Origin: an uncultured Lachnospiraceae bacterium
Lineage (GTDB): Bacteria > Bacillota > Clostridia > Lachnospirales > Lachnospiraceae
Length of the DNA: 36,505 bases
Direction of reading: 5' to 3'
Assembly: GCA_902799015.1 (NCBI GenBank)
Contig: CADBZI010000013.1
Span: 1-36,505, forward strand
Shown here: positions 9,156 to 22,555 of the stretch, piece by piece
Position numbering within the stretch: position 1 is the stretch's first letter
Layout: the number at the start of each line of letters is the position of its first letter
Made by a program: the position numbers and the translations under genes
The notes under the pieces: model-generated
The model's input: only the letters and a program-made list of their open reading frames with translations
The model's database searches: none
What the model was told of the DNA's origin: nothing

Positions 9156-11108
9156 ATGTATAAACGGAACTATTACAGATTCGGAACGGTAATGGCGATA
9201 TCTGTGTTATTCACGGCCTGCGGCAGCATTGCCGCGAATGCCGGCAGCAGCCCTGCCGGCAGAGAACAGATCAACCAGGTATCCCTTCTGCAGGGACTTA
9301 CCTATGGTGATTATAACGGAAGCATTACCGTAAGCCGGCTCAAGGAGCTTGGAGATACCGGGATCGGTACCTTTGATGCCCTGAACGGTGAGCTGATCAT
9401 GCTGGATGGTACAGTCTACAGAGCCGCTTATGATGGTACCGTTGAGGCAGTTGCTGATGAGGAGACGATTCCTTTCTCAAATGTAACTTTCTTTGATGCC
9501 GATGAAGCGGTAAAGCTTACTGACATTGACAGCGTTGATTCGCTGAAGGAGGAGCTGAACGGGAAGGTCAGCGAAACAGGGGAGAACCGTTTTTACATGA
9601 TTACAGCGGAGGGAACCTTCCGCAATATGAATGTGAGAAGCGAGCTTCCGCAGAAAGAACCGTATCGGCCGTTGGCGGAGGTGTTGGAAACAGACCAGAC
9701 CGTTTTTGACTATGAGAACATAAAAGGAACCGTTGTCGGGTTGTACTGCCCTTCGTATATGAGTGATCTGAATGCCGTGGGATGGCATTTCCATTTTATT
9801 TCGGATGACAGGAAGGCCGGAGGCCATGTGCTTGACCTCAGCGCAGATGAACTTGAGGTAAGGATAGACAGAACCGATGGATTTTCCATGGTATTGCCCG
9901 ACAATGAGATGTTTAATGGCTTTGACCTTACGGTAGACCAAAGTGAAGACATAAAGAAGGTCGAAACAGGAGAAGGGGATTCTGGTGTGAGAACCGAACA
10001 GATGGAGGCTGTCTACCTGGGCGTGGACAACTATGGTGACCAGGCGGTCAATAAGGATACGAAGGAAACGTTCCGGTATCGGTTCCTCATAGATGGGAAA
10101 GAAGTCCTGTTTGCAATTGATTCCGGGGAGCAGAATGAAGATGGCGAATACGAATATCCGATCCAGAACATCCTGAAAGAGCAGTATCCCTTCAGGATCA
10201 CGGTGGAAGGAAGTGTCGTTACAGCTGCTGAGGAGATTCACGACGAAGAAGCCACGGAATATGATCCTGTTGTACAGGGAACCCCCGGAATCAGGACGGT
10301 TGGAAATTTTCTGAAGACTGCAATGGAGCCGGTCGGAACAACACTATACATCTATGGCGGTGGATGGGACTGGCAGGATGTGGGATCTTCCCTGCAGGCA
10401 AGGACGCTTGGTGTCTCTTCGGACTGGGTGCGCTTCTTTGTGGAGCAGGATGAGAACTTCACCTTCAAGTCAAAGGACGGAAATGAGGACAATTCAGATC
10501 CTTCCAATAGTTATTACCCTTATGGCGGATACAATGAATACTATTACGCTGGCCTGGACTGCTCAGGCTTTCTCGGATGGGCTTTGTACAATACGCTGGA
10601 GACGGAGGACGGGAAAGACGGGTATGTGACATTCGCATCTGCCTATTCAAAGATGCTCGCCCAGGAGGGATACGGAGACTATACTCGTGAGATTGAAGCA
10701 CCGGTGAAAAATCACGACTGCGAGATGAAGCCTGGCGACATCATGAGTACAGGAGGCCATGTCTGGATCAGCCTGGGAACCTGCAGTGACGGAAGCGTTG
10801 TCGTTCTTCACAGTACTCCTGCCGACAGCAGAACCGGGCAGCCCGGAGGGGGCGTAGAGGTGAGTGCCATCGGTCTGTCAGAAGAATGCGAAGCCTATCA
10901 GCTTGCGGACCGGTATATGTCAGAGCATTACCCGGAATGGTACGAAAGATATCCAGTCAAGCTTGCTGATCCGGAGATCTATTTCTCTACCGAAAATGAG
11001 AATGCCGGGAGGTTTGCCTGGGATCCTGAGAAGGGGAAAGTAAAAGATCCGGACGGCGTCAAGGACATGACTCCGGAGCAGGTACTTGATTACCTCTTTG
11101 ATGCCTGA
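9156..11108 (+). CDS. Lipoprotein fusing acetolactate decarboxylase to an NlpC/P60-like domain
   Basis: A 650-residue exported protein. The N-terminus has a lipoprotein signal with cysteine at residue 22 (VLFTACGS). Residues about 40-260 match acetolactate decarboxylase (AlsD/BudA): GIGTFDALNGELIMLDG (E79), a conserved R161 region, GTVVGLYCPSYM, and zinc ligands in GWHFHFISDDRKAGGHVLDL (H211, H213, H224). A linker domain of about 110 residues follows. Residues about 395-560 look like an NlpC/P60-type cysteine peptidase: YAGLDCSGFLGWALYN (C469), GGHVWISLG (H535), VVLHSTP (H552). AlsD normally makes acetoin from acetolactate in the cytoplasm; its joining to a surface hydrolase on a lipoprotein is unexpected. 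AAAGGAGG precedes the ATG. The two domain calls are from motifs; the joint function is unknown. Confidence 0.85.
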   Translation: MYKRNYYRFGTVMAISVLFTACGSIAANAGSSPAGREQINQVSLLQGLTYGDYNGSITVSRLKELGDTGIGTFDALNGELIMLDGTVYRAAYDGTVEAVADEETIPFSNVTFFDADEAVKLTDIDSVDSLKEELNGKVSETGENRFYMITAEGTFRNMNVRSELPQKEPYRPLAEVLETDQTVFDYENIKGTVVGLYCPSYMSDLNAVGWHFHFISDDRKAGGHVLDLSADELEVRIDRTDGFSMVLPDNEMFNGFDLTVDQSEDIKKVETGEGDSGVRTEQMEAVYLGVDNYGDQAVNKDTKETFRYRFLIDGKEVLFAIDSGEQNEDGEYEYPIQNILKEQYPFRITVEGSVVTAAEEIHDEEATEYDPVVQGTPGIRTVGNFLKTAMEPVGTTLYIYGGGWDWQDVGSSLQARTLGVSSDWVRFFVEQDENFTFKSKDGNEDNSDPSNSYYPYGGYNEYYYAGLDCSGFLGWALYNTLETEDGKDGYVTFASAYSKMLAQEGYGDYTREIEAPVKNHDCEMKPGDIMSTGGHVWISLGTCSDGSVVVLHSTPADSRTGQPGGGVEVSAIGLSEECEAYQLADRYMSEHYPEWYERYPVKLADPEIYFSTENENAGRFAWDPEKGKVKDPDGVKDMTPEQVLDYLFDA

Positions 11109-17284: not shown

Positions 17285-17313
17285 TTGCGGCATCCATAGT
17301 TGTATGATATGAT
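17285..17313 (+). promoter_or_regulatory. Promoter of the c-di-GMP riboswitch transcript
   Basis: TTGCGG (17285-17290) and TATGAT (17308-17313) are 17 bases apart, about 10 bases before the start of the aptamer. Confidence 0.5.
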
Positions 17314-17322
17314 AAAAGACCA

Positions 17323-17395
17323 ATGGCAAAACAGGCGAGAGCCTGTGACGCAAAGCTATAGGGACCGTAAAACGTCAGCCAGCTGCAGCAAATGG
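17323..17395 (+). ncRNA. Class I cyclic-di-GMP riboswitch (GEMM-I) aptamer
   Basis: The sequence matches the GEMM-I pattern. GGCAAA is followed by the stem ACAGGC/GCCTGT with a GAGA (GNRA) tetraloop at 17331-17346, then the hallmark GACGCAAAGC (17347-17356), AGGGACCG, and CAGCCAGCTGC (17376-17386) closing the second stem. Known GEMM-I RNAs bind cyclic-di-GMP at the three-way junction. A perfect intrinsic terminator follows at 17436, giving a standard transcription-control layout. A small hairpin GTAAG/CTTAC (17402-17406, 17411-17415) lies between the two and may take part in switching. The next reading frames are a GGDEF-like fragment and moaA. Confidence 0.88.
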
Positions 17396-17435
17396 AGAAC
17401 CGTAAGTCAACTTACTGAACTTCGTTATGGGAGGA

Positions 17436-17469
17436 GGATCAATGCGGGCTGATTGCATTGATCCTTTTT
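17436..17469 (+). terminator. Expression-platform terminator of the c-di-GMP riboswitch
   Basis: GGATCAATGC (17436-17445) and GCATTGATCC (17455-17464) form a perfect 10-pair stem, followed by five T residues. It lies about 45 bases after the aptamer. Confidence 0.9.
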
Positions 17470-17512
17470 GCGTATCATTGGACAGTATACGGTATTGGGG
17501 TGGAGAATCATT

Positions 17513-17608
17513 ATGAAGCAGGTATTCTCCAGAGTTGACGCCGCACTCTACGAGGCAAAGAACGGGGGGCAGGAACCGGACGGTACAGTCCGGATTAGGA
17601 TCCTCTGA
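17513..17608 (+). pseudogene. C-terminal remnant of a GGDEF (diguanylate cyclase) gene
   Basis: A 31-codon frame whose middle reads FSRVDAALYEAKNGG. This closely resembles the last helix of GGDEF domains (commonly ADxALYxAKxxGRN). No catalytic part is present, and the piece begins only about 45 bases after the riboswitch terminator. The simplest reading is that most of a c-di-GMP-regulated cyclase gene was deleted, leaving its tail. A short functional leader peptide cannot be excluded. It ends 11 bases before the preferred moaA start. Confidence 0.65.
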
Positions 17609-17619
17609 GGATGAGGGAT

Positions 17620-18591
17620 ATGCTTGATAAGAATGGACGCAGGATCGAATACCTGCGCATCTCCATAACAGATCGATGCAATCTGAGATGTGTCTACTGC
17701 ATGCCGGAAAGCGGTGTCTCTTCCATAGAACATGCACAGATTCTGAGCTTTGAAGAGATTACCCGCCTTGTGCGGATCATGACCGGCCTTGGCATAAAGC
17801 ACATCCGGCTGACCGGAGGGGAGCCGATGGCGCGCAGAGGCTGCCTGGATCTGGTGCAGAGCCTTTCTGCGGTCCCGGGGGTTGAGAGCATCTCTATGAC
17901 CAGCAACGGGATTTTGCTCAAAGACAAGGTTCACCAGGCAAAGCTTGCGGGGCTTTCTGCTCTGAATATCAGCATTGACGCTTTGAATCCTTCCGTCTAT
18001 TCCCGGCTGACGCGGGGCGGAGATGTCAGCCAGGCGCTGTGTACTTTGCGGCAGGCGGTGGAGGAAGGCTTGCATGTCAAAGTTAATACGGTTCCGATCC
18101 GCGGCTTTAACGAAGAAGAGCTGACCCCGATCGCGCATCTTGCGAAGGAGGCGCCGATCTGTGTGCGGTTTATTGAGTTGATGCCCATCGGGTATGGGGC
18201 ACAGGCGGAGAGGATTCCATATGCAGAGGTGGCACAGCAGCTGAGGGAGGCTTTTGGAGCGCCGGTGGAAGATGGCCAGACATATGGGCATGGCCCTGCC
18301 CGGTATGTAAGGTATCCTGACTTCAAAGGGGCGGTTGGATTCATCAGTGCCGTCAGCCATGAGTTCTGCGCGTCCTGCAACAGGGTGCGCCTGACGGCGG
18401 ACGGCAGGCTGAAGCTGTGCCTGAATCATACGAAGGGGATTGATCTGCGCGCTATGCTTCGGCAGGGGGCAGAGGACAGGGAGATTCTGGATACGGTGCG
18501 CAGCGCGATTGCCGATAAGCCCGGGCGGCATGCATTTTATGAGAGCATCCGTGACCATGAAGTCCGCAGTATGAATGCAATCGGAGGATGA
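17620..18591 (+). CDS. moaA: GTP 3',8-cyclase MoaA, molybdenum cofactor step 1
   Basis: A 323-residue radical SAM enzyme converting GTP to 3',8-cyclo-dihydro-GTP in molybdopterin synthesis (cytoplasm). The N-terminal cluster site is RISITDRCNLRCVYCMP (CxxxCxxC). TGGEPMARRG is the GGEP motif for S-adenosylmethionine. The second cluster site is in FCASCNRVRLTADGRLKLCL, with three cysteines. The length fits the family, although the C-terminus lacks the extra GG tail. ATG 17620 gives the typical MLDKNGRRIEYLRIS start and has GAGG 9 bases upstream; ATG 17611 is also possible. It follows the riboswitch and GGDEF remnant, and is followed at 1 base by the MOSC-MogA gene, so a two-gene operon is likely. 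Confidence 0.95.
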   Translation: MLDKNGRRIEYLRISITDRCNLRCVYCMPESGVSSIEHAQILSFEEITRLVRIMTGLGIKHIRLTGGEPMARRGCLDLVQSLSAVPGVESISMTSNGILLKDKVHQAKLAGLSALNISIDALNPSVYSRLTRGGDVSQALCTLRQAVEEGLHVKVNTVPIRGFNEEELTPIAHLAKEAPICVRFIELMPIGYGAQAERIPYAEVAQQLREAFGAPVEDGQTYGHGPARYVRYPDFKGAVGFISAVSHEFCASCNRVRLTADGRLKLCLNHTKGIDLRAMLRQGAEDREILDTVRSAIADKPGRHAFYESIRDHEVRSMNAIGG

Positions 18592-18592
18592 T

Positions 18593-19528
18593 ATGACAGG
18601 TGAGATACTGGCTGTATGTACCAGCGACAGAAGAGGAATTCAGAAAACGAATGTCAGCCGGGCAGTCTTTGTTGAGAATTACGGGATTGAGGGGGATGCC
18701 CATGGGGGCAGCTGGCACAGACAGGTAAGCCTGATCAGTGCAGATAAGATTGACGAGTTCCGCAACAGGGGTGCCAATGTCGCATATGGTGCCTTTGGAG
18801 AAAACCTGGTTGTGGAGGGGATCGACTTTCGGACCCTTCCGGTCGGGACGCTGCTTCGGTGCGGGGATGTACTTCTGGAGATGACGCAGATCGGGAAGGA
18901 ATGCCATGCGCACTGTGCGATCTTTCATCAGGTTGGGGATTGCATTATGCCCCGGGAGGGCGTGTTTGCCCGCGTGCTCAAAGGCGGGACGATTCAGGCG
19001 GGAGACAGGATGGTGATCGAACATCGCACCGGGAAGCTGCCCTGGCAGGCTGCCGTCATTACACTCAGTGATAAAGGCGCAAGGGGTGAGCGGGAAGATC
19101 AGAGTGGTCCGGCGATCGCAGACCGGCTCAGAGACAGCGGCTATGATGTGATCGAGCAGTTTATGATCAGCGACGATCCCGATCTGCTGAAGCACCATCT
19201 GATCCGGCTTTGCGACCAGAGAAGGCCGGACCTGATTCTGACAACAGGGGGAACCGGTTTTTCTATGCGGGACAGAACGCCGGAAGCGACGCTTGCTGTG
19301 GCGGAAAGAAATGTACCGGGGATTGCCGAGGCCATCCGCGCCGCATCGCTGAAGATCACAAAGCATGCCATGCTTTCCCGGGCAGTGTCTGTGATCCGGG
19401 GCAAGACGCTGATCATCAATCTGCCCGGCAGCCCGAAGGCCTGTATGGAAAGCATGGATGTTTTCATGGATGCGATCCCGCATGCGATGGGACTGCTGCG
19501 GGGCGATGTTCAGGATTGCGCAAGGTAG
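18593..19528 (+). CDS. MOSC domain fused to MogA/MoaB-type molybdopterin adenylyltransferase
   Basis: A 311-residue bifunctional protein. Residues 1 to about 145 are a MOSC domain (VENYGIEGDAHGG, ISADKIDEFRNRG, EMTQIGKECHAHCAIF), a fold that handles sulfur or carries molybdenum cofactor. Residues about 155-311 are MogA/MoaB-like: AAVITLSDKGARGERED, LILTTGGTGFSMRDRTPEAT with the TTGGTG nucleotide motif, and NLPGSPKACMESMDVF. MogA adenylates molybdopterin before metal insertion. The fusion joins a late cofactor step to a cofactor-handling domain. GGAGG lies just before the ATG, one base after the moaA stop. Other cofactor genes (moaC, moaE, moeA) are not in the window. Confidence 0.92.
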   Translation: MTGEILAVCTSDRRGIQKTNVSRAVFVENYGIEGDAHGGSWHRQVSLISADKIDEFRNRGANVAYGAFGENLVVEGIDFRTLPVGTLLRCGDVLLEMTQIGKECHAHCAIFHQVGDCIMPREGVFARVLKGGTIQAGDRMVIEHRTGKLPWQAAVITLSDKGARGEREDQSGPAIADRLRDSGYDVIEQFMISDDPDLLKHHLIRLCDQRRPDLILTTGGTGFSMRDRTPEATLAVAERNVPGIAEAIRAASLKITKHAMLSRAVSVIRGKTLIINLPGSPKACMESMDVFMDAIPHAMGLLRGDVQDCAR

Positions 19529-21463: not shown

Positions 21464-22555
21464 CTATCTGCTTCTGCGATCATGCTGTGTCTGACGATAG
21501 AAATCACGTTTCGCGGCGTACATGGCATCTTCTGCTTCTCTGACCAGCGCATCCATGTTGAGTGTCCCCTGGCTTTTTTCGCGTGAAGAGGTTCCAAAAG
21601 AGACATGGTAGCCTTTTTTGGCCAGATTCTGTGTCATCACATCAAGCTCAGAAAACAGTTTTTGCGGGTCTGCGTCAATTCGGAATGCAATAAACTCATC
21701 ACCGCCGACGCGGTAGGTATGCTCCGGACCAAAACACTGCTTCAGCGCTTCCGCAATTTCATACAGCATCCGGTCGCCTGCAGAATGTCCGCTCTTGTTG
21801 TTCATCTCATGCAGCCCGTTCACATCCCCATAGACACAGATCAGATTGGAAGTGCACAGATCGGGATATTCATACAGCCGGCTTTCGTAATAGTTACGGT
21901 TCTGGGTACCGGTCAGGAGATCTGTCCGGCTCAGGAACTCTACTTTTCTGGATTGATCCAGCGCGCGGATCTTGATACGCATCGTGAATACTGCACTGAA
22001 AAATGCCACAATTCCGAAGGTAACCATATTCCAGACATCGGTTTCCGCTACATCCGGCTCCTTAAAATGCACAACGATCAGGCAAAATATCGCAACCACA
22101 CCTGCGATCAGGGCAAAGAGGCGGATCGGGCGGTCATAGAACAGAAGCGGAGTTACCAGAAGGAAAGCGACGGCGGAAACGGCAGCCATTTCCGCATGCA
22201 ACATCGAGATATGAATGCCAAATGTATAAAGCATAATCTCGAACAGATACACAAGCACCATCACAATGGCCGGATGCTTTGGCAGAATCAGATGCGCGCA
22301 GATCAGAAGGATTACCATCTCCGCCCCAAAGAACAGATAGGTCGAACTATTCGACGAGGCAAAACCGCCGAAGCAGATACTCGCAAGGTACAGCGCAAAG
22401 AACATCCCGGACGCAAGCAGGGAAAACACGCGCAAAAGTACGCGGTTTTCCTCGTAGATCACAGGCAGCAGGATATCATACTCCTCTTTCTCAACGCCCG
22501 CATAGAATAACAATTCTTTTAATGTGCGGATATGTTTCGTGCGGATCTTTTTCAT
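21464..22555 (-). CDS. Membrane-bound diguanylate cyclase (GGDEF)
   Basis: A 363-residue protein that should make cyclic-di-GMP from two GTP. About six transmembrane helices occupy residues 40-195 (an uncharacterised membrane sensor). The catalytic domain starts at SRTDLLTGTQNRNYYESRL (the DxLT motif, residue about 209) and contains VYGDVNGLHEMNNKSGHSAG and the intact signature RVGGDEF (GGDEF at 284-288). The RxxD inhibitory site usually five residues before GGDEF is missing, so product inhibition through that site is unlikely. First gene of the cyclase, XRE-REC, kinase operon; 17 bases separate it from the regulator. The GEMM-I riboswitch at 17323 could sense its product. Confidence 0.94.
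   Translation of the reverse strand: MKKIRTKHIRTLKELLFYAGVEKEEYDILLPVIYEENRVLLRVFSLLASGMFFALYLASICFGGFASSNSSTYLFFGAEMVILLICAHLILPKHPAIVMVLVYLFEIMLYTFGIHISMLHAEMAAVSAVAFLLVTPLLFYDRPIRLFALIAGVVAIFCLIVVHFKEPDVAETDVWNMVTFGIVAFFSAVFTMRIKIRALDQSRKVEFLSRTDLLTGTQNRNYYESRLYEYPDLCTSNLICVYGDVNGLHEMNNKSGHSAGDRMLYEIAEALKQCFGPEHTYRVGGDEFIAFRIDADPQKLFSELDVMTQNLAKKGYHVSFGTSSREKSQGTLNMDALVREAEDAMYAAKRDFYRQTQHDRRSR

Follow-up and report, generated by a model that had tools for sequence, protein, structure and literature searches.

The stretch of DNA analysed here (the window, 36.5 kb) is part of contig C13 in the 2.64-Mb, 168-contig assembly of an uncultured Lachnospiraceae bacterium. In this window a class-I c-di-GMP (GEMM-I) riboswitch aptamer is followed by an intrinsic terminator, by the remnant of a GGDEF gene and then by two molybdenum cofactor genes (Table 1). 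The riboswitch belongs to a known class and is ordinary in itself; what is unusual is its position. The assignment of the first intact gene as moaA is at the equivalog level (352 bits against a cut-off of 284 for NCBIfam TIGR02666). Its listed open reading frame begins at 17611, and the moaA genes of relatives begin at the codon matching 17620; moaA therefore probably starts at 17620, 12 bases past the stop codon of the remnant. The second gene encodes a MOSC–MogA fusion, and Pfam domains confirmed both identifications, which had been proposed in a first-pass annotation of the sequence. The same annotation had placed an intact cyclase nearby, and we found that the gene, on the opposite strand, indeed keeps the GGDEF motif. 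Its neighbours are a histidine kinase gene and an HTH-receiver gene, a trio that recurs in two sister genomes of the genus (G008 and G016), and it is a possible local source of c-di-GMP.

Table 1. Features of the riboswitch–moaA locus, in window coordinates
Feature	Position	Strand	Basis or remark
Promoter-like site: TTGCGG, 17-nt spacer, TG-A-TATGAT (extended -10)	17285-17313	+	by eye; weak
GEMM-I (c-di-GMP-I) riboswitch aptamer	17315-17390	+	RF01051, 57.8 bits
Proposed antiterminator arm 1, GUCAGCC, 3′ part of aptamer	17374-17380	+	7-bp complementarity to 17447-17453
Copy of interspersed 35-nt repeat ending in a Shine–Dalgarno (SD) sequence	17402-17436	+	repeat searches
Intrinsic terminator: 10-bp perfect stem, 9-nt loop, T5	17436-17469	+	rule scan and shuffles
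24-codon leader frame, MRADCIDPFCVSLDSIRYWGGESL	17442-17516	+	putative coding role
Proposed antiterminator arm 2, GGCUGAU, loop side of terminator	17447-17453	+	weak
FIST-GGDEF gene remnant: probable start codon joined to C-terminal tail, frame shifted in tail	17513-17608	+	DNA homology
moaA (GTP 3′,8-cyclase)	17620-18591	+	Pfam Radical_SAM, Mob_synth_C; TIGR02666
MOSC-MoCF_biosynth (MogA/MoaB-like) fusion, second gene of the pair	18575-19528	+	Pfam
Intact GGDEF protein gene	21464-22555	-	Pfam; GGDEF motif kept

Elsewhere in the window, an IS605 OrfB/TnpB-like protein is encoded at 132-1694 (Pfam OrfB_IS605 and Cas12f1-like_TNB), and in a 650-aa open reading frame at 9156-11108 an acetolactate decarboxylase domain is confined to residues 40-259, with no Pfam match at E 0.001 for the remainder.

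The c-di-GMP aptamer and its terminator

The Rfam covariance model RF01051 matched the aptamer over its whole length (model positions 1-87 of 87, E 6e-9), and the score of 57.8 bits against a gathering cut-off of 35 bore out the well-formed GEMM-I element that had been read upstream of moaA. This was the sole Rfam match in the window at the gathering threshold; the Moco riboswitch family RF01055 gave no match there. The score is real but not high, ranking 71st among the 93 GEMM-I places listed. At least one GEMM-I element was present in 43 of the 98 genomes searched, the genome under study included, and this genome has one further copy (G000:C9, 63.2 bits) with a gene for a CAP-domain protein about 200 nt downstream. 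The base ahead of CAAA in the window aptamer is G (17326), presumably the ligand position, at which G would be expected of c-di-GMP binders and A of c-AMP-GMP sensors. The promoter-like site upstream would place the start of the RNA shortly before the aptamer core, and we regard it as weak because it is absent from the scanner list (its -35 element matches at 3 of 6 positions).

To define the terminator we used a rule that calls for a 10-bp Watson–Crick stem, a loop of 3-12 nt and at least 5 T of 6. The hairpin GGATCAATGC/GCATTGATCC at 17436-17464, followed by TTTTT, was the only site of this kind on either strand of the window, and none occurred in 20,000 dinucleotide shuffles of 17391-17610, in keeping with the perfect terminator first described after the aptamer. 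It is missing from the list of the generic scanner because the loop limit of that scanner is 8 and the loop here has 9 nt. The predicted fold of 17312-17480 had a z-score of -4.2 relative to shuffles, and the terminator lies near the aptamer, as a GEMM-I expression platform requires. We surveyed 56 of the 93 GEMM-I places, the window among them; at 33 of the 55 other loci (34 of 56 with the window included) a terminator-like hairpin lay no more than 110 nt from the aptamer. Among aptamers of 75-77 nt elsewhere, 14 of 17 had such a hairpin, 13 of them at 2-19 nt and one at 75 nt; the distance in the window is 45 nt.

Compared with the RF01051 class as a whole, the window switch is alike in aptamer sequence and structure and in its adjoining intrinsic terminator. 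It differs in that moaA and the MOSC–mog gene are the next intact genes, that a GGDEF remnant, an SD repeat and a leader frame intervene, and that the terminator stands so far from the aptamer. The target genes of class-I c-di-GMP riboswitches are described as very diverse in PMC7266159, and the open-licence literature that we searched yielded no report of GEMM-I ahead of moaA. Molybdenum cofactor genes are known to be preceded by another riboswitch, the Moco riboswitch RF01055 (PMC2408646). The window shares with that system a riboswitch ahead of such genes, whereas it lacks an RF01055 match and c-di-GMP would be the molecule sensed.

The GGDEF remnant and the locus in related genomes

The 31-codon frame, earlier interpreted as the tail left by deletion of a GGDEF gene, was confirmed at its coordinates. 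Pfam gave no match to this very short piece. A BLAST search of the 19 genus genomes (the one under study included) with this region showed 84% identity between the 77 bases of 17515-17591 and the 3′ terminus of a gene in G008:C14. G008 was the only one of the 18 sisters to match the remnant tail, and the finding upheld the earlier reading. The G008 gene is intact, with 593 aa and FIST, FIST_C and GGDEF domains, indicating that the parent of the remnant was of the FIST-FIST_C-GGDEF type (PF08495, PF10442, PF00990). The remnant is like such genes in its tail and probably in its start, and unlike them in that about 31 codons are left, partly out of frame: only the tail remains, without the catalytic GGDEF motif, as a pseudogene remnant whose reading frame leaves that of the G008 gene part-way through the tail. 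We found no full-length FIST-GGDEF gene in this 85%-complete genome, in which the best match was 34% identical over the GGDEF part and none reached E 1e-60. We also considered whether the remnant came from the nearby intact GGDEF gene (4 kb distant) and rejected this, as that gene has a different tail and the genome contains no other DNA match to the remnant tail.

The start of the original gene also appears to be retained, with weaker support. The 5′ context of the G008 FIST-GGDEF gene can be aligned with 17471-17527, and only 1 of 2000 shuffles of 17475-17527 aligned with that 5′ region as well, although the match involves few bases and is obtained with a gap of 5 nt. When 17471-17515 was taken by itself, 46 of 2000 shuffles did as well for the start context, as against 423 of 2000 for the alternative, the tail context. 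Furthermore, MKQ stands at the presumed start in the remnant, in the two closest genus copies (G008 and G017) and in the three family relatives that are closest; three of the five have an open frame that extends further upstream. The remnant ATG could have arisen by a mere point change in the tail, but the alignment with the start context favours a retained start. Resemblance at the start together with a matching tail is as expected if the gene had undergone an internal deletion between copies of a short direct repeat common to both.

We then compared the locus with those of relatives. A protein search with moaA gave some match in 49 of 61 genomes, many of the matches being other radical-SAM proteins. 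At the best-match moaA loci of 28 other genomes (L033-L060), some of them cut by contig ends with little upstream sequence, Rfam detected no GEMM-I; L061, which is cut inside moaA, was left out. One of these relatives, L048, has a Moco riboswitch at its moaA locus. In the named genome collection moaA had four relatives, three from uncultured Lachnospiraceae and one from a distant Synergistaceae, and the moaA locus L064 of that collection was likewise without GEMM-I in Rfam. Relatives of FIST-GGDEF at E 1e-60 or better occurred in 22 of 250 family genomes, at 23 loci; GEMM-I was found at none of the 21 loci scanned (20 of the 23 family loci and the G008 locus), a further difference of the window from such genes. 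With 0 of 28 moaA loci and 0 of 21 FIST-GGDEF loci carrying GEMM-I, the proposal that the switch formerly controlled the cyclase is unsupported by relatives, and the comparison of related genomes did not bring to light a full GGDEF gene between GEMM-I and moaA. The arrangement thus looks private, since the adjacency of switch and cyclase and that of remnant and moaA are known here from the window alone.

Orthologues of moaA in the genus lie in other neighbourhoods. The moaA–mog pair is accompanied by moeA in G008, G012 and G013, moaA by moeA with no mog match in G015, and moaA by different neighbours in G002. Upstream of moaA, Pfam identifies a MobA/MobB protein in G008, and by eye G015 encodes one that looks similar. 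Ahead of the switch lies an alkyl sulfatase-like gene; other genes come after its counterparts in G012 and G016, and the contig end after that in G015. Neither these moaA neighbourhoods nor the surroundings of the alkyl sulfatase-like gene in G012, G016 and G015 provided an intermediate state of the arrangement. MoeA was found in 5 of the 18 sisters, and not in the other 13 or in the assembly under study; the absence here is weak evidence because the assembly is 85% complete, and it gives only a hint that the molybdenum cofactor pathway is reduced in this genome. A moaA–mog pair without adjoining moeA occurs both here (17611-19528) and in G002:C97, and MoeA was found in neither assembly. In a separate observation, the longest genus BLAST match to the window aptamer (81% over 63 nt) was G002:C87:13333-13408 (L066), which has its own terminator 11 nt further on and no clear gene behind it among the open reading frames listed, making it a second possibly stranded switch.

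An interspersed repeat with a Shine–Dalgarno sequence

The expression platform of the switch is occupied by a copy of an interspersed repeat, which fills the extra distance between aptamer and terminator. The SD repeat and the leader frame behind it are new, the first-pass annotation having missed both. This genome contains about 30 copies of the 35-nt repeat and 32 matches to a 109-nt form (other matches are, for example, L172, L177, L179 and L199), and among the 18 sisters the 109-nt form matched once in each of G008 (nearly full length), G016, G010 and G001. Within the genus the repeat is nearly confined to this genome. We found that in 24 of the 27 distinct core copies read, an open reading frame of at least 60 aa starts 4-17 nt after the repeat (23 with ATG and 1 with TTG), against a background of 7-10% of window positions with a comparable ATG behind them. 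The three copies without such a frame include the one in the window. The genes behind the copies are unrelated and, going by their first residues, probably include dnaK, ffh-like, metF-like and rubrerythrin-like genes. A literature search brought up no paper on such a repeat in ribosome-binding sites. By eye, the 109-nt form has an apparent long hairpin on its 5′ side, and at one site (L096, G000:C3:11321-11460) two copies stand in tandem as direct repeats with a gene start after the second.

If the repeat was inserted into the platform, the original spacing would have been 45 - 35 = 10 nt, inside the 2-19 nt of 13 of the 14 other loci in the 75-77-nt class. At the dnaK and aminotransferase repeat sites, the spacer of the closest sisters, G008 and G016, is about as long and unrelated in sequence, and at the aminotransferase site the spacer is longer than in G005 and G018. 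Because of the similar lengths in the sisters at these two sites, the insertion is not proved. The leader frame begins with an ATG (17442) 5 nt past the SD sequence of the repeat, crosses the terminator and ends in a stop codon that shares bases with the remnant ATG (17513-17516). No relative with this locus was found.

Possible control of moaA by read-through

Most type-I c-di-GMP riboswitches are OFF switches. The class does not fix the direction of switching, since in PMC3649979 the C. difficile type-I riboswitch Cdi1_1 shows the opposite behaviour, with induction by c-di-GMP, and control of flgB is called positive in a figure legend; premature transcripts are also reported there for C. difficile type-I c-di-GMP riboswitches. 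For the window we infer an OFF switch acting through the terminator. When c-di-GMP is bound, the 3′ part of the aptamer would stay paired, the terminator would form and transcription would stop, and without ligand some polymerases would read through, giving RNA that carries moaA and the MOSC–MogA gene. The adjoining FIST-GGDEF gene, which the switch may originally have served, would have been lost through a deletion between short direct repeats near its start and in its tail, plus a frameshift, and moaA and the MOSC–MogA fusion would therefore be the nearest intact genes downstream of the switch, probably transcribed at least in part by read-through. We judge this reading as a whole to stand at an even chance. 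Control of moaA by read-through, considered by itself and from the sequence, is plausible, with the chances for and against it about balanced.

A candidate antiterminator joins the 3′ part of the aptamer to the loop side of the terminator, with a 7-bp pairing that was equalled by 330 of 2000 shuffles and is thus within chance. The forced antiterminator fold (-47.4 kcal/mol) is 9.7 kcal/mol weaker than the terminator fold (-57.1 kcal/mol), and together with the chance-level pairing this suggests that the default state may be termination. The predicted RNA favoured the antiterminator pairing when cut at 17459 and no longer did so when cut at 17461; any antitermination would therefore be kinetic.

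This energy difference also favours the main rival explanation, a distinct possibility although short of an even chance, in which the switch is a fossil whose terminator works nearly always and moaA–mog are expressed from a promoter inside 17470-17620 or the remnant. The scanner list for the + strand of 17470-17620 contains no second terminator and one promoter-like site (17479-17508, 9 of 12 matches), so that the earlier statement that no other terminator or clear promoter precedes moaA holds with the exception of this weak site; it would suit the fossil switch, but with 0.7 such sites expected in shuffles it is no better than chance. A fossil would also be consistent with the separation of aptamer and terminator by the repeat, with the rank of the aptamer score in the lower range of the places listed and with the wrecked state of the adjoining gene, whereas the full-length match to the model and the perfect terminator stem speak against it.

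It seems improbable to us that the switch controls the leader and remnant frames themselves, for example through translation of the leader frame that starts from the repeat SD and is coupled through the overlap to the remnant and then to moaA, which would make the control mainly translational. The predicted fold draws the SD sequence into the terminator stem, and the close spacing of SD and leader ATG, the overlap of leader stop and remnant start and the 12 nt from remnant stop to moaA speak for such coupling; yet the window copy belongs to the few repeats with no open reading frame of at least 60 aa behind them. It is very improbable that the junction is an assembly artefact joining unrelated pieces around repeated sequence. 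The number of contigs and the presence of a sequence with about 30 copies in the region would make such a join conceivable, but the repeat is just 35 nt long here, the contig is 140 kb, and the order of switch, terminator, remnant and moaA is coherent and tightly spaced.

Returning to read-through from the c-di-GMP switch, a stronger version of this reading is target capture, in which the deletion handed the switch to moaA–mog, the repeat rewired the expression platform, and high c-di-GMP lowers expression of the cofactor genes. We put this forward tentatively and consider it rather unlikely in its full form. If it were true, the locus would be a rare snapshot of a riboswitch changing its target through deletion of the intervening gene, with the RNA itself unmoved, and it would link a lifestyle signal to the metal cofactor of redox enzymes of anaerobes.
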